Positions 422 through 18,631 of a DNA stretch of 20,542 bases are shown piece after piece. The notes under the pieces were generated by a model. That model was not told the origin of the DNA. It ran no database searches and worked only from the letters and a program-made list of their open reading frames with translations. Within the stretch, counting starts at the first letter, position 1. Every line of letters starts with the position of its first letter. The translations under genes were made by a program, and so were the position numbers. Location: positions 1-20,542 of the IMG/VR virus record IMGVR_UViG_3300042525_000208, one strand, 5' to 3'. The stretch comes from a virus.

Positions 422-700
422 ATGAAAACAGCAATGCAAGAATTATTAGATATTACTTATAAGTCTATATCTAATGCTAAAGAACTAAAGTTAAATGGTC
501 TTAATGATCAACGTGAAATAGACATTTTATTGAATGTATATAATGTTTATAGGGTTATAATAGAAAGAGATATGCTTGAAAAAGAAAAAGATAGAATGTT
601 TCATTCTTTTTATGCTGGAGTTGGATATGATGAAGTTTTAGATGATTGCGACAAAATATTTGAACAATATTATAATGAAGTATTTAACCAAAACAAATAA
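422..700 (+). CDS. Small phage protein of the MKTAMQEL family, copy 1 (92 aa)
   Basis: Function unknown. The protein is charged and helical, begins MKTAMQELLDI, has a central LEKEKDRM segment and ends with FEQYYNEVFNQNK. The same layout (MKTAMQEL start, LEKEK in the middle) recurs in the next gene, so the two are paralogs. From memory, small proteins with this start, an LEKEK-x-x-I-x-x-A core and an EQYYN-x-x-F tail are common in phages of Flavobacteriia; I recall no assigned function. It sits three bases after the helicase stop and is followed by its paralog after two bases, so it is part of the replication operon. There is no Shine-Dalgarno; the leader is A-rich. Confidence 0.85.
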   Translation: MKTAMQELLDITYKSISNAKELKLNGLNDQREIDILLNVYNVYRVIIERDMLEKEKDRMFHSFYAGVGYDEVLDDCDKIFEQYYNEVFNQNK

Positions 701-702
701 CT

Positions 703-921
703 ATGAAAACAGCAATGCAAGAATTAATTGAGTTAATTGTAAACAACAAAACTAGGCTTGATATAATTGAAAAAAATCAACAAATGTGGCTTGAAAAAGA
801 AAAAGAGCAGATAATTACCGCTTTTGAAGTTGGATATAAATCTTGCGATTTAGATGAAACGTTTGAAATTAATAGGAAATTAGCAAGTGGAGAACTGCAC
901 TATAACAAAACTTATAAATAA
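703..921 (+). CDS. Small phage protein of the MKTAMQEL family, copy 2 (72 aa)
   Basis: Function unknown; paralog of the gene just upstream. It begins MKTAMQELIEL, carries LEKEKEQIITAFEVGY in the middle and ends with HYNKTYK, a worn version of the family tail EQYYN-x-x-F. The first 24 coding bases are identical in both copies, while the remaining sequence has diverged strongly. The start codon follows the stop of copy 1 by two bases, inside the leader AACCAAAACAAATAACTATG. Strong conservation confined to the first eight codons suggests the start region itself is under selection or was exchanged. It is predicted to be a soluble, mostly helical protein. Confidence 0.82.
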   Translation: MKTAMQELIELIVNNKTRLDIIEKNQQMWLEKEKEQIITAFEVGYKSCDLDETFEINRKLASGELHYNKTYK

Positions 922-5082: not shown

Positions 5083-5481
5083 TTATTTAATTTTTATTAA
5101 TGCTAATGCTACAAACAAAAGCAAAGTCCATAATCTATTTATACCTTGTTCTTGTTCAAACTTTTCTTTAAACTCTGGATCAATTCCTGTACTAGATTTA
5201 ATATTTTGGATATGAAATCTGTAAATATTGACTGAATCTTCTTTACTGCGTAGTTTACTATTTGTTGTAACATATAAATTGTTTTTAAGTGATAACGAGT
5301 CCTTATAAGCGATTATTGTATCGTTATAGGACTTATATAATTTGTTAATAGTGTCTGCTTGACCAATGGTCATTATAACAACAGAATCACCCTTAATCTT
5401 TTTTGTAGTGGGATATTGGGAGTAGCTTGAAACTGACAGCAGTATCATTGCTAACACTATCCAAAGTTGCTTTAACTTCAT
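5083..5481 (-). CDS. Exported protein with signal peptide and C-terminal membrane helix; spanin-like topology (132 aa)
   Basis: The N-terminus MKLKQLWIVLAMILLSVSSY ending in SQ is a typical Bacteroidota signal peptide with cleavage near residue 22. A polar, coiled-coil-like periplasmic part (about 30-110) follows, and a second hydrophobic helix ends the protein (RLWTLLLFVALALI, 116-129). The first 89 bases overlap the 3' end of the next upstream gene in another frame. An export signal plus C-terminal membrane helix recalls unimolecular spanins, but those are lipoproteins and no lipobox cysteine is present here. It lies two bases before the holin candidate. A role in outer-membrane disruption at lysis is a hypothesis from topology and position. 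Confidence 0.75.
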   Translation of the reverse strand: MKLKQLWIVLAMILLSVSSYSQYPTTKKIKGDSVVIMTIGQADTINKLYKSYNDTIIAYKDSLSLKNNLYVTTNSKLRSKEDSVNIYRFHIQNIKSSTGIDPEFKEKFEQEQGINRLWTLLLFVALALIKIK

Positions 5482-5737
5482 TTAGTTCGGTTTTTAGTGT
5501 GGTTATCTCTTGCTTAATCTCAGCGAACTTACTAACGGTAGACGTTACTATAGCTTCTTTAGCCTGATCAGCTTTAACTTGAACAGCTTTGTTCTTAGTC
5601 ATTGTGCTATTAAACTCAGTCATAAATTGCTGGAACTCCTTATCTTCAGTTACTGCTTTATCTTCTTTTTTAGCTGTAACATTTATAGTAGTTGCTGTAA
5701 CTGTTAGAAAACCAAATATCAAAAGAATAGATTTCAT
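5393..5737 (-). CDS. Exported coiled-coil protein overlapping its downstream neighbour (114 aa)
   Basis: The N-terminus MKSILLIFGFLTVTATTINV looks like a signal peptide or anchor. The rest (about 25-100) is a charged helical region with heptad-like spacing (KFAEIKQEITTLKTELNEVK). The last 89 bases overlap the next gene in a different frame, so the C-terminal segment TAVSFKLLPISHYKKD is encoded by the same DNA as the signal peptide of the next protein. Overlapping exported coiled-coil proteins next to a holin resemble the Rz/Rz1 spanin arrangement; no lipobox is visible. Function is unproven. Confidence 0.75.
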   Translation of the reverse strand: MKSILLIFGFLTVTATTINVTAKKEDKAVTEDKEFQQFMTEFNSTMTKNKAVQVKADQAKEAIVTSTVSKFAEIKQEITTLKTELNEVKATLDSVSNDTAVSFKLLPISHYKKD

Positions 5738-6053: not shown

Positions 6054-6638
6054 TTACTTTTTACCTATTTTAAAATATACACTACCTGAGTAGCCTATAT
6101 TAAAGTTTTTATTAATATTTACATTAAGACCTATTAGAGCCTTATTTTTGGCATTAAGCATGATTCCAGGACTTAGTACTTCTAAGCCATTAGACTCGCT
6201 TAAATCGCCTCTAAAGCCTAAATAAAGGGTATTCTTAGCTTTAGCTGCCTTAGTAATGGTGGTAAGTATTGTTTTTTCGGTTATTTTAGCCTCAAATCCC
6301 CTTGATTGGATCATATTTTGGCTTATAGTGTCGTTGATGACAAAGGTATTAGAATCTACATTAATGGTGTCAGAATACGCATAAGTACGCATATAATCGG
6401 ATACTATGCGTATAGTATCATGTACGGTAATTTGTACAGAATCATGTACAGTATCTGTAGCTATTATAACAAAAGGAATATCTTTTCCTTGTTTCCACCT
6501 GGTGGTTACATTTGTTTGATATACAGTATCGGTCTTTACAGACTCTATAACAGCACTTGAGCTATGGCATGAGTCGTAAACCCACACCATAGCAAAGAAG
6601 CTAACAATAATGATTAAATAGTCCTTAATATGCTTCAT
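6054..6638 (-). CDS. Membrane-anchored beta-rich protein (194 aa)
   Basis: Hydrophobic N-terminus at about residues 7-21 (YLIIIVSFFAMVWVY), followed by a cysteine at 24 (YDSCHSSS), which is a poor lipobox. Residues 35-110 are rich in Asp-Thr-Val repeats (TDTVYQT, TDTVHDSV, VHDTIRIV, DTINVDS), suggesting a chain of short beta strands. The C-terminal 60 residues alternate in a beta-barrel-like way (TLYLGFRGDL, ALIGLNVNIN, FNIGYSGSVYFKIG). I recall similar anchored proteins in Bacteroidota phages near lysis genes, without known function. It overlaps the preceding gene by one base (TAATG), so translation is probably coupled. Periplasmic or outer-membrane contact is inferred. Confidence 0.75.
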   Translation of the reverse strand: MKHIKDYLIIIVSFFAMVWVYDSCHSSSAVIESVKTDTVYQTNVTTRWKQGKDIPFVIIATDTVHDSVQITVHDTIRIVSDYMRTYAYSDTINVDSNTFVINDTISQNMIQSRGFEAKITEKTILTTITKAAKAKNTLYLGFRGDLSESNGLEVLSPGIMLNAKNKALIGLNVNINKNFNIGYSGSVYFKIGKK

Positions 6639-6979
6639 TATTCAGCACCTTCTGTAGATTGTTCAATAGCTTTTTCAACAATTGGCTCTGGTACAGGAGC
6701 AACATAATCACCTGTGATTGTTAGTTTAAGTTTAGCAGCTAACCAATCCCAAGCATAAGCATTAGCATCAGAAGCACTATTGTAGCTAACATAATCAGCA
6801 CCATTCATATCAACAGTTCCATTTACTAAAGGAGATATATTAATGTCTACTTGTTCAAATAATTGATAGTAAAAAGTTGCATTGTCTACAAGATTGTCTG
6901 AATTAACTTGAGAATATAACACACTTGCTTGTTTTGACTCTCCATTTATCCATATGGTTAGTGGATTAATTGTTTTCAT
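6638..6979 (-). CDS. Small fiber-associated protein, copy 2 (113 aa)
   Basis: Paralog of the 91-aa protein at 8516-8791. Shared features: MKTI-x-P at the start, DNL...ATFYYQL (residues 28-40), a Gly-x-x-x-Met-x-Gly-x-Asp-Tyr segment (NGTVDMNGADY), an aromatic helix YAWDWLAAKL and LTITGDYV. This copy has about 20 extra residues at the C-terminus (PVPEPIVEKAIEQSTEGAE). Each copy follows a fiber gene directly, so it is probably a fiber partner: an assembly chaperone, a capping subunit or a virion decoration. I recall small proteins of this kind behind fibers in Bacteroidota prophages but no proven function. Confidence 0.8.
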   Translation of the reverse strand: MKTINPLTIWINGESKQASVLYSQVNSDNLVDNATFYYQLFEQVDINISPLVNGTVDMNGADYVSYNSASDANAYAWDWLAAKLKLTITGDYVAPVPEPIVEKAIEQSTEGAE

Positions 6980-8515: not shown

Positions 8516-8791
8516 CTAACCATTTGTTACATCTTCTGTCACAAAATTTCCAATAATTGTGACATCAATTTGTTCCGCAACCCACTCATACGCATATTCG
8601 TTTGTTGCCCAATTATCGTAATCTTCTCCTGTCATTGTTAAGTTACCTTGTTGTAACTGACTTTGAGTATCACTTAAAAGTGCATAGTAGAAAGTAGCAG
8701 ATGTGCTTAAATTGTCATTGATGCAGTATGCGTTTAAAATTACTGCTGTTCCTAAGTTTAGTGGGAATACCACAGGTTGAATTGTTTTCAT
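8516..8791 (-). CDS. Small fiber-associated protein, copy 1 (91 aa)
   Basis: Paralog of the 113-aa protein at 6638-6979: MKTIQPV start, NDNLSTSATFYYALL, GNLTMTGEDY, YAYEWVAEQI and VTIIGNFV line up without large gaps. It begins 17 bases after the stop of fiber 1 behind an A/T-rich leader (ATATAAAA just before the ATG) and is followed by fiber 2. The alternation fiber-small protein-fiber-small protein suggests each small protein serves the fiber encoded upstream of it. Function unproven; mainly beta strands with one aromatic helix near the C-terminus. Confidence 0.8.
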   Translation of the reverse strand: MKTIQPVVFPLNLGTAVILNAYCINDNLSTSATFYYALLSDTQSQLQQGNLTMTGEDYDNWATNEYAYEWVAEQIDVTIIGNFVTEDVTNG

Positions 8792-8808: not shown

Positions 8809-11800
8809 TTATACCATTGTTAAAGATTTCCAAGCACCACCGCTATACACATATACCCCTTCTGTTCCGTCTGTTTGATATACCATTAATCCTGTTGCAG
8901 GAGAAGATATTGCAGCTCTTTGAGCAGCAGTCATTCTTGGTGGTAGGAAGCCTTTTGTAGTGCTTTCAATTTCAAAAACCGCAGATGCAGGAATAGTTGA
9001 AGTTGATTTCATTATCCCAACAGCACCACTATCTGTGGTAGTTATCATAATTGGTTCTAATGAAGTATTATTATTAGTTATACATATATTATTTGTATTT
9101 CCTAATGATGATTGACCAAATTTTTTAGTCCCACTTCCTGTGCTTCTTATAAATAAATCAAATTGAACGTGTGCATTTCCATAAATACCCGTTGAACTAC
9201 TATTTATACCATATATCCCTGAATTATTAGCGGTAGAAGTCCACATTCTTATTTGTCCACCTGAAGCATTGCTTAAATGAACTAAATCCTGTACCCTTGC
9301 AGTACCATTTACATCTAACCTAAAGCCTGCGTCTGTGAATGTACCACCGTTTTGAATAGTAACATTACCACTTTGGAAAATTCTAAAATTCTCATTAATA
9401 GTTCCTGCATTATTTCTATTTTGAATAGCAAAATATGGGTTTTGATTATCTACATTGCCCGATACCAAATTTATTATTGAAGATACACTTGAAGCAGTAT
9501 TGACTATTCTTATTGCTGTAGTATTAGCGTTATTTGCAATCGTTGTAAAAAAAAGTGCAGATAAATTATTTCCTGTTGTAGTGTTTTGAACTCTCAATCC
9601 AATATTACTAACCCCCGTAAACGCACCATTCGTAAATGTTGGGTTTATATCAAGACCAACAAGAACGTCATTGTTTGCTGCTGCTACTAAAGTAGTGTTT
9701 AATAACTGACCTCTTGCTATTGCACTTGATGCAGTTTCAGAGCCTCCTAATGTGAACTTGGTTGCAGTTCCAAAAGTAGTAGTACCTAATGCTAAATCAC
9801 CACCTGAACTTAAAGTTAATTGAGCAGTACTTGAACCACCTGCTGCAAAGTTTATATTACCTGATGCAAAGTCGTTTAATATAGAAATATTTCCTGCTGT
9901 AGAATTATTAAATATTATTGCATCTCTTGAAGCTAATGTTTTATACGATGTAGTTGCAGTAGAATATTTTACAACAGAAAACTGACCTGATGTAGCATCT
10001 GATGTTATTTGAATACCAGACACAGATAATGCACCAGATGTAGTATTATTTATATCAAGACGAGTTTGGGCATTTGCATTTTTGCTTATTGTTATATTAT
10101 CTTGTACTCTTGCAGTACCATTAACATCTAATTTAAAGCCTGAATCTGTTGCAGTACCTAAATGCATATTACCATTTGCTCTTAACCATAATAATGGAGA
10201 ACCACCATAAAATGTAAATGTTGCAGCATTTGATGTGCTTCCTGCTCCTGCATTATAAAAATTAAATCCAACAGTATTATTTAAAGATGCAGCAGTACCT
10301 AATGTAAAAGCAACTGATTGTGTTGCAGTTAAGTTAGGTGCTAACATATCAAGTGTATTAACATAAGTTGTAGAACCATTATTTGTTAATAATGCAGTAC
10401 CTAATGTTGTTGAATTTGATGTTGATGTAATTGACCTTGCATTTGATACAACACTTCTAAAACCACCACTTATATCTAAAGCAAAAGTAGATGTTGTAGT
10501 TGTGCCAATAAGTAACTGCCCTGCTAAATAGTTAGCAGCAGAACCATTCATATATAAATTCCAACGATTAGTACCGCTTGGAATGTTTCCGTAGAAACCA
10601 AAGTTGTTAGTTGCACCAATTAATGAAGATGCAGCGTGAAAACCAATTTGACTTGTAACTGTTGAACCTGCTCCAAATGTACCTTGTGATGCAAAATTAT
10701 GATGTAAAAAATTTAAAGTAAATGTTGCCGCTTGAGTTGATGCTATACTTCTATAATAATAAGCATTACTTGTTACATCTGATAAAACTGTACCATCATT
10801 GACTATACCATAAGATGTAGCTAATCCTGTAATGTCTTTTGAAATTCTTATTGCATATCCAGTTAAAGGTCCAGCACCAATCCCCAACAAACCACTTATA
10901 AAGCTATTAGAACCCAAACTAATCAAAGTACCACTATCTGTAATATTACTATTACCTATTGCACTTGCACCTGTGAACTTAGGTAAAGTGTTTGTTGTAC
11001 CTGTACCTGTTACAGGGTTAGTTAAAGCATTCTGCTTATTATTAAAAGTTGTCCAATCCGTTGAACTTAACTTACCTGTATTTGTAGCCGAAGCAATAGG
11101 TAGGTTAAAAGTATGAGTATCACCAGTTGAAGCGATAGTAAAGTCAGTACCGCTTGTTCCTGTGGTTAAAAATTGTGATTGGTCTGTTAAGTTATTCAAA
11201 GAAACCATACCCTTAGATAAAGTAGTAACTACTTGACACAAATGTCCATTCTCGGTATGTAAAGTAACTGTTCTACCATCTACGTTTACATAGATTCTAA
11301 TTGCCAATCTATCCGTTAAAGCTAAAGCAGCAGTAGCGACAGGAATAGCAAAATAGTAAGGTGCTATTATAGTTCCTTGATTAATATATTCAGGAACTCC
11401 AACGCTACTACCTAATAAGGTAAAAGTTGTGCCATCGTACTTATAAAGTTCTGCATAGAAAAAAGGATTGCCTGTATCGTTACTAACACTAAAATAGAAC
11501 TCACAATTAAAATTACCGCCAGGAATTGATAATACATCAGGGTCATTAGCATCCGTTAAATAACTTGCCACATATCCGTTAGCTGCAATAGCAATGTCAG
11601 TTCCAGCACCTATAATTGGTTCTTTATTTAACTCTCTATATGCAACTCCACCTATTGTACCTTGTGAAACACTTGAGTTAAGATAGTAAGAAACCGAACT
11701 TCCGCCACCACTTGATGTTGGGAAATCCGCTAACGTACCATCCCCTCGTACATATTGAGAAGCAGCACCATCTAAAGCAGTTATTACACCACTATTAGCC

Positions 11801-11862
11801 ACTACTGGACCTTGTATGTCCCTTATCTTTGCTTCCCCTGATACCTGTAATTGTGAACTCAT
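8809..11862 (-). CDS. Large tail fiber / adhesin 1 (1017 aa)
   Basis: Modular fiber. The N-terminus carries a shaft-like motif ([12 protein letters not shown]), a segment [15 protein letters not shown] and a Gly/Ser linker. Residues about 59-214 form a domain shared with the 389-aa tube-like protein (SYYLNSS..., [56 protein letters not shown]). The middle is a long series of degenerate beta repeats such as [40 protein letters not shown] and [18 protein letters not shown]. The C-terminus [20 protein letters not shown], then GLMVYQTDG...[11 protein letters not shown], is the standard terminal segment of many Bacteroidota phage fibers. It is the largest protein in the window and probably the main host-contact fiber. 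Confidence 0.85.
9288..10149 (-). repeat. Two 49-base repeats encoding the [11 protein letters not shown] fiber motif
   Basis: Copies at 9288-9336 and 10101-10149 match at 42 of 49 bases and encode [16 protein letters not shown] and [16 protein letters not shown]. They are 813 bases (271 codons) apart within fiber 1 and mark a repeated shaft element. Confidence 0.7.
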
Positions 11863-11882: not shown

Positions 11883-13052
11883 TTATTTTGCAATTATTCT
11901 AACAAACTCATCAACCTCTAAAGCTCTGCCAAAGGTAACAACTCCTGTCGAAGCGTTAAATGTAACATTGTCGCCTGTTGGTACACCTGAAGTTTGTATT
12001 GTTCTAACCTCCATACCACCTCTTGTAACTGACAAGCAAACTCCACCTATTGCACCTGCAAAGATTACTGTTGTTTCACCGCCACTAGCTGTATATTGAT
12101 ACATTATCACATTTGAAGTTTCTATTACCACTCCACCACCAGGAGTAACTTGTGTACCTGTTATATTATAAGCACCAGAGCCTTGTAGTGACACGCTATA
12201 TGTCGAGGCTGCCTCTACCCCTGCACTTAAACTAAGTGAGCTTAAATTGGCTGATCCTGTGAATACTGAGTATCCTAGAGTACCACTACCATCTCCATTG
12301 TCATTATCCACTTGGAACTTAATTAAGATAGGTTGTCTTGTCAACTGAAGGTTAGCCAAGAATAAGTAAGAATAGTCGCTTAAAGCAACAAAGCCATCAG
12401 CATTGATAGACCATGAAGCTACGTCATTCTTAAACTCTTTAAACCATGCAGAACTTTGAGATGTTACTTCCTTTTGATCTACTGAAACCTCAAAAGAGCA
12501 GTTTGTAGCTGCTCCAAATGGGATTGTTGTAGGTATAGTTGTAATCGCTGAAGCATCATTAGAACCTTGTGTATAGAATGTCATTGTTTTTGTAGTAATC
12601 TGACTTGCTACCACTTGTATAACTATTCTTTCATTCGACAATAATGTTGCACCTGGAAACGCAAATGTTTGTGTGTATTGTTTAACAGCTAGTTGTGTAA
12701 AAAATATGGAGTTTGTAGTTCCTATAGATGTCAATGTTGTACCATTGTATTTGTATATATGGTAGTAGAATCTAGGTGCTGATACCAAATCATCACTTAT
12801 CGATGCAAAAGCATTAAAAGTCCAAGTACCAGAAGGTATTGATAATGTTGGAACATCTGTAATAAATCCTGCAACTATACCATCTGAAGTTTTAGTAAAA
12901 TTCGTAGCTACTCCGTTACTATCAAGTAATCCAAATTGCTTATAACTTAAACCACTAATGGTAGTTACCGAAGTAGAACCATTAAAATAAAAGGTTGGGT
13001 TTGGGTTTGTATAGTACAATACTATGTTCGTTCCGTTTATTACTGATGCCAT
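11883..13052 (-). CDS. Tail-tube-fold protein with inserted fiber-type domain (389 aa)
   Basis: Composite structural protein. Residues 5-13 (INGTNIVLY) match the start of the 144-aa major tail protein (FNGTNLVVL). Residues 183-298 match the rest of it: TNCSFEVSVDQ with TSCSLSVSADL, SSAWFKEF...SWSINADGFVAL with SSGGWADQ...SWSLTTDGLTTV, ILIKF with VTVKF, and TYSVSLQGSG with TYSASFTGQG. Residues about 19-176 between the two parts are a separate domain shared with fiber 1 (IYKYNGTTLTSIGTT with [15 protein letters not shown]). A C-terminal extension (305-389) ends TGVVTFGRALEVDEFVRIIA. The gene lies between the hub-type protein and fiber 1, so it is probably a tail-tip or distal-tail ring component that carries an accessory binding domain. 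The homologies are visible; the role is inferred. Confidence 0.8.
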   Translation of the reverse strand: MASVINGTNIVLYYTNPNPTFYFNGSTSVTTISGLSYKQFGLLDSNGVATNFTKTSDGIVAGFITDVPTLSIPSGTWTFNAFASISDDLVSAPRFYYHIYKYNGTTLTSIGTTNSIFFTQLAVKQYTQTFAFPGATLLSNERIVIQVVASQITTKTMTFYTQGSNDASAITTIPTTIPFGAATNCSFEVSVDQKEVTSQSSAWFKEFKNDVASWSINADGFVALSDYSYLFLANLQLTRQPILIKFQVDNDNGDGSGTLGYSVFTGSANLSSLSLSAGVEAASTYSVSLQGSGAYNITGTQVTPGGGVVIETSNVIMYQYTASGGETTVIFAGAIGGVCLSVTRGGMEVRTIQTSGVPTGDNVTFNASTGVVTFGRALEVDEFVRIIAK

Positions 13053-13067
13053 TATTTATATTTTATA

Positions 13068-15281
13068 TTATCCATAAGTTTCTAAAATCTCTCCTGCTCC
13101 ACTAATTCTGTAAGCTTGGAAGTAAGTGTCTGTTACTAATACCTTCCACCAAATATTAGCACCATTAAATCCTACATTTAACAAGTCATTTGTATAGAAG
13201 AAATCACCAATACTTGGCACTCCTATATCTTCAAGATATATCAAATTACTTGTTAAAGGAGCTGCATAAGCTAATTCCTTAGTTAAATAACCATTTGACC
13301 TAAAGTGACCATAGCCTGTTTCAGCAGTTGATAATTTATTGCTATCATATATAGTAGTCATTGTTGTAGATACATTATTAGGGTTTACCTCTAGTAAAGT
13401 AGCTGCTATAACATCATTAGGCAAGTCTATAGTAGAATTGCCAATTATATATCTCTTGTCGTTAACGCTAATTTGTGCAGGGTCGGTATCTATAGCCCTA
13501 ATAGGCATAGCACCACTAAATCTACCTTCTGATGTTTGCATACCCATAAATGCAGCATCTAGATTTATTATGTTTTTATTTAAGCAGTTTGAGTATTGTT
13601 TTACAACTAACTCACTTAGGCTTCTATATATATCTGTTGGGTATTCCTGTCTGTACCAATTTTTTAAGTTTAAACCAGCCGAATCACTTAAAAATCCCTT
13701 GTAGCTATACTTGCCATCATTTATGTCATTAAAGCCCATTGGTAGGTCTATTTCAAGCACATATTCATTATTGTTAGTAATATAGCTTTCTGTTGTTAGG
13801 CTGATAAAGGTGGACTGTAAATCAATTTTAAAATTACTTACATCTGCACCTGCAATGGTAGATTTCCAATAAGGAGCTGAATTGTCACATAAAATAAGCT
13901 CTACTACAAGTTGACCAGTTACAGGGCAAACAGGAGTTGTTACGTTTACATTAGCTTTTGGGTCAGCAGGATTAAAAGCCTCAAAATAATAGTGATCTCC
14001 TGTGTTAACTGCTTCTTTCCATGCTTTATTATTATCTAAGAAATAAGAAGGACCTGTTGCAGGATTAACTTGTACTTTTAATATAAACAATGCGTCTGGA
14101 CCACCAGCAGGAGTACCTAAACCTACTATGTCAAATGATATGTTAAAAGTATCACTTGAGTTAAGATTTGGTAGATTATTAGGAGATACTGAAACGTAAT
14201 AAGGATTAACTGTTAAATCATGGCTTAAAATAAAAGAATTATACTTTCTTTCAGGATATGGCTTTATGTAATTAGTGCCACCATTCCTAACTTGTGTCCA
14301 TCCAAAAGCATTGCTTACTGTTGGTGAAACATATTCATATATTTTTAAGTCCCAATTCGTAGCATAGTTTGTAGGGTTTTCAATAGTCTTGTTAAATCTA
14401 ATTTTGTTATAACCTTTTCTAATTAACTTAAATTGACTATTATCTACAAAATATAATCCTGTATCATTTCCTGAATATCCTTCAATAATACCTTTTACAT
14501 CAAATACGTCATTACCGCTTATTGTTCCATCACTATTATAAATAGTAACATAATAAGATTCTTGTGCAAACTGAGTTAAAGATACTATATGCCAATTACC
14601 ATTAGCCTGAAACAATCTTGCTCCAAAGCTTTTAGTTAACATAGTTAAAATCTCTAAACAGTTTAATGTTTCTTGTTTGTCATTAACTATTGTAGCATAA
14701 TTTATATATGTTTGGTCTAATGGATCAGCGTTTAAATTGCCTGTTCTATTAGTCATCCCTTCGGCATAAAAACTTATACCGCTTATAATATCATAATCTA
14801 ATGGGTATTCTAACTCTAATAAACAATCCTTTATAAAGGTCATTGCTTTTTGTACTTGTGTTAAGTATATAGTGTTAGGTAAATTGTACTTAATTCTTTC
14901 TAGCATACCCAAACCATCTATAGCACTAAAAGACAGTTCTTTTCTACCAGTGTTAAATAAAAACTGTACATCATCACTTATAGACCATCCTTGAAAATCT
15001 GTAATACCGCCTGATACAACCTTAACAAAATACTTTCTGTCATTTAGAGTTGTAAAGTTTGGCATATTTTCTATATTATCAGTAACGTCAATAGACACAT
15101 TTAATTGGCTAACATAAATAGGCTCAAACGTATCATCACTATTAGGTATATATTCTAATTGTAGACCTGTAGCTTGATATTCTATAGTGCTGCCAACATA
15201 TCCATCTTCGTAAAGATAAACTGTACTACTAACATTACTTTTACTAGCTGTATTTATTATATATTTTACTGCGTATGCCAT
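13068..15281 (-). CDS. Tail hub / baseplate-type structural protein (737 aa)
   Basis: Directly follows the tape measure (one-base TAATG overlap), the position of distal-tail and hub proteins in siphoviruses. The N-terminal 150 residues are beta-rich (STIEYQATGLQLEY, VSQLNVSIDVTD, ELSFSAIDGLGMLERI). Next comes a mixed region with CLEILTMLTKSFGARLFQAN and NWHIVSLTQF, resembling the hub region where proteins of this kind discuss a 'domain plus ring' layout. A carbohydrate-binding-like beta sandwich may lie at about 290-490, and the last third contains WYRQEYPTDIYRSLSELVVK and a C-terminal beta stretch. I recall similar large proteins after tape measures in Bacteroidota phages annotated only as tail proteins. 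The hub assignment rests mainly on gene order. Confidence 0.7.
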   Translation of the reverse strand: MAYAVKYIINTASKSNVSSTVYLYEDGYVGSTIEYQATGLQLEYIPNSDDTFEPIYVSQLNVSIDVTDNIENMPNFTTLNDRKYFVKVVSGGITDFQGWSISDDVQFLFNTGRKELSFSAIDGLGMLERIKYNLPNTIYLTQVQKAMTFIKDCLLELEYPLDYDIISGISFYAEGMTNRTGNLNADPLDQTYINYATIVNDKQETLNCLEILTMLTKSFGARLFQANGNWHIVSLTQFAQESYYVTIYNSDGTISGNDVFDVKGIIEGYSGNDTGLYFVDNSQFKLIRKGYNKIRFNKTIENPTNYATNWDLKIYEYVSPTVSNAFGWTQVRNGGTNYIKPYPERKYNSFILSHDLTVNPYYVSVSPNNLPNLNSSDTFNISFDIVGLGTPAGGPDALFILKVQVNPATGPSYFLDNNKAWKEAVNTGDHYYFEAFNPADPKANVNVTTPVCPVTGQLVVELILCDNSAPYWKSTIAGADVSNFKIDLQSTFISLTTESYITNNNEYVLEIDLPMGFNDINDGKYSYKGFLSDSAGLNLKNWYRQEYPTDIYRSLSELVVKQYSNCLNKNIINLDAAFMGMQTSEGRFSGAMPIRAIDTDPAQISVNDKRYIIGNSTIDLPNDVIAATLLEVNPNNVSTTMTTIYDSNKLSTAETGYGHFRSNGYLTKELAYAAPLTSNLIYLEDIGVPSIGDFFYTNDLLNVGFNGANIWWKVLVTDTYFQAYRISGAGEILETYG

Positions 15282-17491
15282 TACCCTCTTCTAATATTTA
15301 ATGATGAATTAGACCTTTGCATAGCCAAAACTAAGTCTTGTCCTCTTAATACAAACTGACCATTTCCACCACCACCAATCAAATCTTTTAATTTATCTAA
15401 AGGTGCTATAACCTCAGGGTTATTTTGTGCACCTGGATATTCACCCATTAGACCCATAGTAGGTCCTGATACAATACCGCCATTAGCAAATGCCGTAGGA
15501 TCAACAGCAGATTGCTTAAGTCTATTCTTAATTATAGTACCTAAAGCAACAGCTCCAACACCAGCAGCAATAGCTACAAAAGGATCAGGTGATGCAAAAG
15601 CTATTTGTAATAATGTTCCATATTGTATTAACATTTTACCAATGTTAATTAAAGCGTCAGCAAGTAATTTTTGGAAATGTTCAAGAGGCTTTACTTCGCC
15701 ACCACTTAATGCGTTACCTATATTTTCGCCTAAAGTTGTAAATGAATCAGCTAAAAATCCTGATATAATACCACTTATTCCTTGAGCAGTAGCTTGAAAT
15801 GTATCACCCAAAGATTCTATCTTGTTGTTCATTTCATCTATTTCCTTGTCTACTGCTGCAACTTGCGTAGGTAATCCAAGTAATTCTAACTTAGCTTTTT
15901 CTTCTTGTAATTTCTTTAAGGCATCTTTATAATCTTTTATTTGTAGATTAATGTTATTTCTATCTAATCTTAATCTTACCTTTAAAGCATCTTGTATTTT
16001 TTTAATTTCAGCAGAAGTCATGTTTTGATTTATCCTATCAATGGCATCTGCGATATTTTCTCTATTTTGTATTATTAACTTACCAATTTGAATTTCTTTG
16101 TCTAATTCTTTTTTTAGTAAATCTTCTTTTAAGTTGTACGTTTGTTTATATAAGTCAGCTATAGTATTTTGATAAAAGGACTCTTCAATAATCCCTTGAT
16201 TGTACCAAGCTACTAAATCAGCCATTGCTTTCTGAAGTAGTTGTACCTTTTTTAAATCATTGCCCTCTGCATAAGCCAACTGATTATCTAAATTATCTTT
16301 AAATAATCTTTGTTCTTCTTCTAAAGCTTTAAGAAAATCTTTTGCATAAGTGTCTTTTGGCTCAGGCTTGTCTTTACCTCCTCCACCACCAGGCAATAAA
16401 CCTGCTACAAATGTCTTTTGTAATTCAAGAATTTTGCTTTTTACTTTTTCAACAGCACTAGCTGCATTAAGAACAACTTGTTCTTGATTCATCCATTGTC
16501 TATCGGCTTCATTTGTATATGTTTTTGTAGCTAAAGATGTTACATCAATTTCTTTACTTAATGTTTGATAATTTAGTATACCATCTTTTACTACAGTTTC
16601 AGATGCTTTAGCTGTTTTTTTAGCTTGTCCAGCTAATTCCTTTTCTTTATCTAAAACCTTTACTAATGCAACATATTCATCTTTATAAGCAGCAATAAGA
16701 GCCTGATTAAGCATTGCTTCTGTAACCTTCTTAATTGCTTCTTCTGATTTGCCTGTTTTTATAGTATTTTCATCTAACTTTATACCATAATCTTTAAGAA
16801 CCTTATTTACTTCATTAATTGCATTCTTTCTTTGTAAATCAGTAGAGTTTGCATCTCTTGCTATTTTAACATAATTTGTAAGCAATAATTCGTTAGCGTA
16901 ATAATCATTTTTAGAATCGCCTAAAGCTTTATTTAAATCTTCTTGTGATTGCTTTAATTCATCAGTAGTTTTTTTAGCTTTAAACATACCCATATCCCAA
17001 GCTGTAATAACAGCTATAAGAGCAGATATACCTAAATATATAGGACCAGTCATTTTAGCAAACCCACCAGCAACGGCAGGAAGGTTATTTTGAATACCTC
17101 TAAATCCAAATGGCAAATCCTGTATAACTAACGCAAGGTTAGTCCATTGTATATTATTTTTTCGTAAAGAGCCTGTAGTAGCATCTATCCCAGCAGATGT
17201 TGGCATTGATGCAGTCATTTTCTTAAAACTAGCACTAGCTGGGTCTATTCCATTTGCAACCAAAGACTGAAAGTCTTTTTGAAGTTTATTAGCAGCAGCT
17301 CCTGCTTGTTGTGATGCAGGACCAAATAACTTAATAGCAGCCTCTAGATTTTTAGCGTTCTTTTGAATGTTATTAGCAATTTTTTGGAACTCTTTATCAG
17401 TACCATTAAACTGACCAATCATTTGATATAACGCATCATTAACCCCTTGAAAATCGAGGTTTAGTTTTAAGTCTACTTGATTATCTGCCAT
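15281..17491 (-). CDS. Tail tape measure protein (736 aa)
   Basis: Sets tail length and is ejected with the DNA. It has the typical make-up: helical charged N-terminus (1-115), a hydrophobic segment at about 150-166 (IYLGISALIAVITAW), a long coiled-coil middle (about 170-570, including DKEIDEMNNKIESLGDTFQ-like segments), a Gly/Ala-rich hydrophobic part near 620-660 (FVAIAAGVGAVALGTI) and the family-typical C-terminal GGIVSGPTMGLMGEYPGA...PEVIAPLDKL. At the usual 0.15 nm per residue, 736 residues predict a tail near 110 nm. It follows the frameshifted chaperone pair and overlaps the hub gene by one base. Confidence 0.92.
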   Translation of the reverse strand: MADNQVDLKLNLDFQGVNDALYQMIGQFNGTDKEFQKIANNIQKNAKNLEAAIKLFGPASQQAGAAANKLQKDFQSLVANGIDPASASFKKMTASMPTSAGIDATTGSLRKNNIQWTNLALVIQDLPFGFRGIQNNLPAVAGGFAKMTGPIYLGISALIAVITAWDMGMFKAKKTTDELKQSQEDLNKALGDSKNDYYANELLLTNYVKIARDANSTDLQRKNAINEVNKVLKDYGIKLDENTIKTGKSEEAIKKVTEAMLNQALIAAYKDEYVALVKVLDKEKELAGQAKKTAKASETVVKDGILNYQTLSKEIDVTSLATKTYTNEADRQWMNQEQVVLNAASAVEKVKSKILELQKTFVAGLLPGGGGGKDKPEPKDTYAKDFLKALEEEQRLFKDNLDNQLAYAEGNDLKKVQLLQKAMADLVAWYNQGIIEESFYQNTIADLYKQTYNLKEDLLKKELDKEIQIGKLIIQNRENIADAIDRINQNMTSAEIKKIQDALKVRLRLDRNNINLQIKDYKDALKKLQEEKAKLELLGLPTQVAAVDKEIDEMNNKIESLGDTFQATAQGISGIISGFLADSFTTLGENIGNALSGGEVKPLEHFQKLLADALINIGKMLIQYGTLLQIAFASPDPFVAIAAGVGAVALGTIIKNRLKQSAVDPTAFANGGIVSGPTMGLMGEYPGAQNNPEVIAPLDKLKDLIGGGGNGQFVLRGQDLVLAMQRSNSSLNIRRG

Positions 17492-18196: not shown

Positions 18197-18631
18197 TTAT
18201 GCGTTAGTAGCCTGAGTTAATTGACCTTGTCCTGTAAAAGAAGCAGAGTAAGTAACTGGAGACTCCATGTCAGCAGTAATATCTAAGCTTTCTACAAATG
18301 CAGAACCAGACCAAATTAAGTCACCTACGATTGGAGTGCTACCGTTAACTGTAGTAAACTTAACTGTAACTACACCTCTACCATTTAAAGCAGAGAAAAT
18401 ATCTCCTACTACATAGTTTGTACCTGTTGGTTCAACTGTAGTAAGACCATCTGTAGTTAAAGACCAAGAACGCAAACCTGCGATTTGATCAGCCCATCCA
18501 CCACTTGATTTAGTTGTTGCATCTGGTAAGTCAGCACTTACAGATAAAGAGCAAGATGTAGAATGAGCTACAACTTCAGTTCCTACTAGAACTACTAGGT
18601 TTGTACCATTAAAAATTCCTGTTGTTGGCAT
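18197..18631 (-). CDS. Major tail (tube) protein (144 aa)
   Basis: Forms the stacked rings of the tail tube. The sequence is beta-rich: FNGTNLVVLVG (7-17), TSCSLSVSADLPDATTKSSG (25-44), GWADQIAGLRSWSLTTDGL (45-63), GVVTVKFTT (86-94) and VTYSASFTGQGQL (126-138). The W-ADQ-x-x-G-x-RSW-S-x-x-x-DG core is the usual signature of phage tail tube proteins of this size. It lies between the tail terminator-like and the tail chaperone genes, as expected. The 389-aa protein at 11883 is a divergent, expanded paralog. As a highly expressed protein it has its own A/T-rich leader (AAAATTAAAATAAA before the ATG). Confidence 0.88.
   Translation of the reverse strand: MPTTGIFNGTNLVVLVGTEVVAHSTSCSLSVSADLPDATTKSSGGWADQIAGLRSWSLTTDGLTTVEPTGTNYVVGDIFSALNGRGVVTVKFTTVNGSTPIVGDLIWSGSAFVESLDITADMESPVTYSASFTGQGQLTQATNA

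Follow-up and report, generated by a model that had tools for sequence, protein, structure and literature searches.

The 389-residue protein encoded on the minus strand at positions 11883-13052 of the viral record IMGVR_UViG_3300042525_000208 (the window, meaning the whole stretch of 20,542 nt that was analysed) is supported by sequence and modelling as a tube-fold paralog of the tail tube protein encoded in the same DNA, and it carries within its first beta-hairpin a module that is shared with the neighbouring fiber. Among relatives this module is repeatedly lacking, gained or swapped, and it may therefore serve as an interchangeable device for host binding at the tail tip. The reading that we regard as probable is that a duplicated tube gene supplies a tail-tip ring subunit with an optional, exchangeable adhesion module, which would act in the manner of an evolved distal tail protein (evolved Dit) on a different scaffold.

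The tube homology of the scaffold is seen at several levels. In a BLASTP comparison within the window, the 389-residue protein has two real partners only, fiber 1 (1017 residues; 8809-11862, minus strand) and the major tail tube protein (144 residues; 18197-18631, minus strand; Pfam Phage_tail_2, E 2e-9; PHROG 1407, E 7e-25), which is the paralog without an insert; neither the tube score nor the fiber-1 score was matched by any of 500 shuffles. Residues 182-293 align with tube residues 24-136 at 28% identity (E 9e-9), in agreement with an earlier sequence-only reading that had tube similarity resume at residue 183. The segment comprising residues 178-298 (12159-12521, minus strand), which makes up the rest of the tube domain, is also recognized by Pfam Phage_tail_2 (residues 183-295; 24.9 bits against a cut-off of 23.8) and by PHROG 1407, a major tail protein family (residues 172-309; E 1e-16), and a profile of the scaffold searched against solved structures matched a single family, the monocin tail tube MttP (E 9e-7). 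The first beta strand of the tube domain lies in residues 1-13 (13014-13052, minus strand), which align with tube residues 6-14 through a nine-residue match (INGTNIVL / FNGTNLVV). By itself this match is weak, as 1 of 500 shuffles equals its score; it becomes firm because PHROG 1407 covers residues 1-155 without a break in natural insert-less relatives.

Structure prediction, which had been proposed as the check on a tube fold in residues 183-298, bears that fold out. Foldseek searches with the model of the 389-residue protein returned MttP (27% identity) and viral major tail proteins; normalized to the length of the target, the TM score was 0.44-0.48 for MttP and 0.67 for a viral protein of 132 residues. 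Among viral proteins the best match was to a 294-residue protein of an uncultured phage, annotated as a TP901-1 major tail protein, with 46% identity; members of the family are therefore already in databases. In the AlphaFold2 monomer model, the insert mostly has a pLDDT of about 90 and the C-terminal domain of about 80-95, and the tube domain, which consists of strands and one helix, has values of about 50-65; such values are plausible for a subunit modelled without its ring, but they do limit the model. The C-terminal beta domain (residues 313-389; 11886-12116, minus strand), which the sequence-only reading had missed, is conserved among relatives, and no counterpart was found in the tube protein or in the other proteins of the loci searched.

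The limits of the insert are set by the insert-less relatives, in which the first strand (NGTNIILYYYD) passes through a short beta-hairpin turn (PETEE) into the second strand (GIPFGAATNCSFEVSVDQ). The module takes the place of this turn and spans residues 14-177 (12522-13013, minus strand), so that the proposal of an insertion after the first strand is confirmed by natural empty alleles. The module is homologous to residues 59-215 of fiber 1 (11218-11688, minus strand): residues 21-173 align with this part of the fiber at 30% identity (E 5e-14), close to the match of residues 19-176 first noticed. The fiber module modelled alone (pLDDT 86, pTM 0.81) and the model of the whole tube paralog gave the same leading Foldseek matches, to the jelly-roll domain of CocE-type hydrolases, as would be expected if insert and fiber domain are alike in structure. 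This hydrolase domain is classed as galactose-binding-domain-like; weaker matches were to CBM6-type modules and to phage baseplate or spike proteins. The prediction for the module is a galactose-binding-like domain with a jelly-roll fold. A Pfam search of the module gave no match to a carbohydrate-binding module family, only sub-threshold families of unknown function. The jelly-roll fold is a common one, and many jelly-rolls do not bind sugar. Within module types dN/dS is 0.03-0.22, and the module is therefore maintained by purifying selection. It is also present in fibers of other uncultured phages. (Its position differs among the fibers of L048, L049, L126, L156 and other loci, being near residue 57 in one set and near residue 230 in another, which indicates that the fiber N-terminus is itself modular.)

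A first scan of viral contigs found 80 loci with relatives, most of them full length (about 382-392 residues) and several of 234-238 residues that lack exactly the insert; further scans brought the set to 167 distinct complete relatives. Because the searches were seeded with the window's own sequences, the counts that follow are not population frequencies. The module is present in 86 of the 167, in ORFs of about 380-402 residues, and missing from the other 81, 80 of which are about 230-250 residues long, giving two discrete length classes overall. No other type of insert was found at this site among the 167 complete relatives. In the closest pair with and without the module (L012 and L065, respectively), DNA identity is 92% in the 60 bases that end at codon 13 and 89% in the stretch that starts at codon 178 and continues into the following gene, the difference being the insert. 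The window also resembles an insert-less locus (L080), with 92% identity across 7 kb that reaches almost to the same codon. One locus (L016, 7390-8301) has a tube paralog 99% identical to that of the window whose frame ends after 302 residues; in the first scan it still matched residues 1-389, which suggests a frameshift or a sequencing error.

The history of the module was followed on a tree of the scaffold, built from complete ORFs only (91 rows) with the module columns excluded. (A 5'-truncated ORF, L073, was left out; counted as empty, it gave 12 changes rather than 11.) Presence and absence require 11 changes on this tree, at least 8 of which are forced by well-supported branches. Alleles have also been exchanged. 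The window and L020 have scaffolds that are 96% identical and modules that are 34% identical, and their DNA homology stops at nucleotide 77 of the gene and resumes at 532; the module has therefore been swapped as a cassette. The window and L048 present the reverse case, with scaffolds at 50% and modules at 78% identity, and constraining the window-type modules to a single clade on the scaffold tree was rejected (AU p 1.3e-9). The modules carried by tube paralogs and those carried by fibers form two separate clades (support 100/99 and 99), and the result was the same when more fibers were added; recurrent copying from the adjacent fiber is therefore not indicated. Among the sampled sequences, the module thus entered the tube paralog once, or from one source, and was then lost and transferred at the same site.

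The gene lies in a tail-tip gene block, as do tip tube paralogs of the T5 p140 type. On the minus strand the order is connectors, tail terminator, tube, two small genes, a probable tape measure protein (736 residues; 15281-17491; assigned from position and a weak PHROG tape-measure match), a virion structural protein of 737 residues (13068-15281; PHROG 23570), and the tube paralog, followed by fiber 1, a small gene, fiber 2, a paralog of that small gene and lysis-like genes; fiber 1 is the next gene downstream of the tube paralog in the window, and this order recurs in relatives. The 737-residue protein, which stands between tape measure and tube paralog, is a candidate for the hub. Its N-terminus is related by tblastn to gp58 of Cellulophaga phage phi12:1, and a profile search of the protein against solved structures in the PDB gave no match. 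The two small genes 3' of the fibers (6638-6979 and 8516-8791, minus strand), each directly following one fiber gene, are paralogs (35% identity, E 5e-14) and possibly encode fiber-specific chaperones or caps. Elsewhere in the window, two adjacent small ORFs at 422-921 (plus strand) share the start peptide MKTAMQEL and then differ, and near the lysis-like genes two ORFs of 132 and 114 residues (5083-5737, minus strand) lie in different frames with an overlap of about 90 bases.

The nearest cultured phage found is phi12:1, which has one recognized tube gene. The gene after gp58, gp59, was considered as an empty relative and rejected, since gp59 is not tube-like. When 50,697 phage records were searched by tblastn, neither the whole protein nor its scaffold nor the fiber module gave a match, and no cultured relative carrying the tube-paralog gene was found among these records; a scan of genome contigs with the scaffold likewise gave no matches. 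Two MAGs, one of Flavobacteriaceae and one of Chitinophaga, have contigs with the fiber module among those binned to them, and most start codons of the window are preceded by A-rich leaders with no clear Shine-Dalgarno site. Together, these observations suggest a Bacteroidota host, which would be Gram-negative and is probably Flavobacterium-like.

The main rival explanation gives the added domain a structural role, in which it would pack on the neighbouring ring subunit, or dock the fiber through contact of like with like, and bind no host molecule. A precedent exists in the tube protein of phage YSD1, whose inserted beta-sandwich stabilizes the ring (PMC8718954), and the adjacent fiber does have a domain of the same family, with 53 loci in which a module-bearing tube paralog is followed downstream by a module-bearing fiber. 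However, in 58 loci the module is present in the fiber and missing from the tube paralog; therefore the tube module is not needed for assembly or for docking of the fiber. Nor would repeated loss of a packing domain, or the swapping of versions only 34% identical on an unchanged scaffold, be expected, and a purely structural module thus seems unlikely.

A different placement of the protein, as a minor tube subunit along the tail shaft whose module decorates the tail, would recall the carbohydrate-binding extensions of the lactococcal 936 major tail protein. The paralog does belong to the same family as the main tube protein, and carbohydrate-binding modules on tail shafts are known (PMC6669499), but the known ones extend the main tube protein at its C-terminus, the tube paralog has a conserved C-terminal domain of its own, and its gene adjoins the fibers, past those for the tape measure and the candidate hub. 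We consider shaft decoration quite unlikely, and the same gene position was counted in favour of a ring at the tip; counted against the tip ring were phi12:1, which has no tube-like protein at the matching position, and the low pLDDT of the tube domain in the monomer model. Finally, the sharing of a module by adjacent genes might point to an insert copied recently from the neighbouring fiber in each genome, but the two well-supported clades of tube and fiber modules reflect one old split; recent copying is rejected by the trees, and intragenomic duplication is very improbable as a source.

In the preferred reading, duplication of a tail-tube gene would have yielded a tail-tip (baseplate) ring subunit, whose tube domain would form a stacked ring close to the hub, where the tail ends. 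A jelly-roll of about 160 residues, of the kind that the neighbouring fiber also has close to its N-terminus, can take the place of the turn that joins strands 1 and 2. Pointing outward, a ring of such modules would offer extra, probably low-affinity sites for host surface glycans that supplement the fibers and may affect host range. Since the DNA on either side of the insertion site is conserved, recombination between related phages can add, remove or exchange the module and leave the ring untouched. A more specific proposal, which we offer only tentatively, is that the first hairpin is a dedicated domain-exchange site at which a second receptor-binding module is toggled or swapped independently of the fiber, giving two-tier recognition (fiber and ring) in a group of uncultured phages that probably infect Bacteroidota. 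If the tip-ring reading is correct, the strategy of an optional tip-ring adhesion module arose a further time, with a duplicated tube protein as its scaffold and, probably, Gram-negative Bacteroidota as the hosts; in the literature searched, no description of this insertion was found. The near-identical natural pairs with and without the module, or with two unlike modules, constitute a ready-made experiment on the role of a tip module in adsorption.

Known systems share separate parts of this arrangement. The closest solved relative of the tube domain, MttP of the Listeria monocin (8qhs, 9j1j, 9j1k), is a main tube protein and has no insert. A second tube-fold ring protein in the tip is found in T5 p140 (and T4 gp54), where it is explained by duplication of the tube gene (PMC10038345); p140, however, carries no inserted module and is regarded as a landmark confined to T5-like phages. 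Paralogs of the p140 type lie between tube and Dit, with a collar around them. Add-on domains of the YSD1 and lambda type can be structural (PMC8718954). The YSD1 major tail protein, YSD1_22, resembles the tube paralog in having a beta-sandwich domain inserted in a tube fold, but that insert separates helix 1 from strand 4, belongs to a main tube protein and has a structural role (PMC8718954). TpeX of the 936 phages and gp17.1 of SPP1 also join a tube-family protein to a domain with putative or demonstrated carbohydrate binding (PMC6669499, PMC8718954), but there the domain is appended to the C-terminus of the main tube protein by a frameshift.

Evolved Dits have been described mainly in phages of Gram-positive bacteria. 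In lactococcal, lactobacillar and streptococcal siphophages they combine a tip ring, which here would be formed by the tube paralog, with an optional binding insert of similar size (PMC10688798, PMC7291167, PMC6669499), and one such insert, of 168 residues, restores adsorption to and infection of exopolysaccharide-bearing hosts (PMC10688798). As in the tube paralogs, relatives with and without the insert exist, and related modules are reused in other virion proteins. The Dit gene, however, directly follows the tape measure and precedes the hub, whereas the scaffold described here comes after the 737-residue hub candidate, matches tail-tube families only and is not a recognizable Dit. Moreover, the insert of the tube paralog lies in the first hairpin of the ring domain rather than in galectin-domain loops, the module belongs to another family, and the host is probably Gram-negative. 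The likeness to evolved distal tail proteins that was drawn from the sequence at the outset therefore holds as an analogy of mechanism, and membership is not supported, the scaffold being a tube paralog with its insertion site in the first hairpin.
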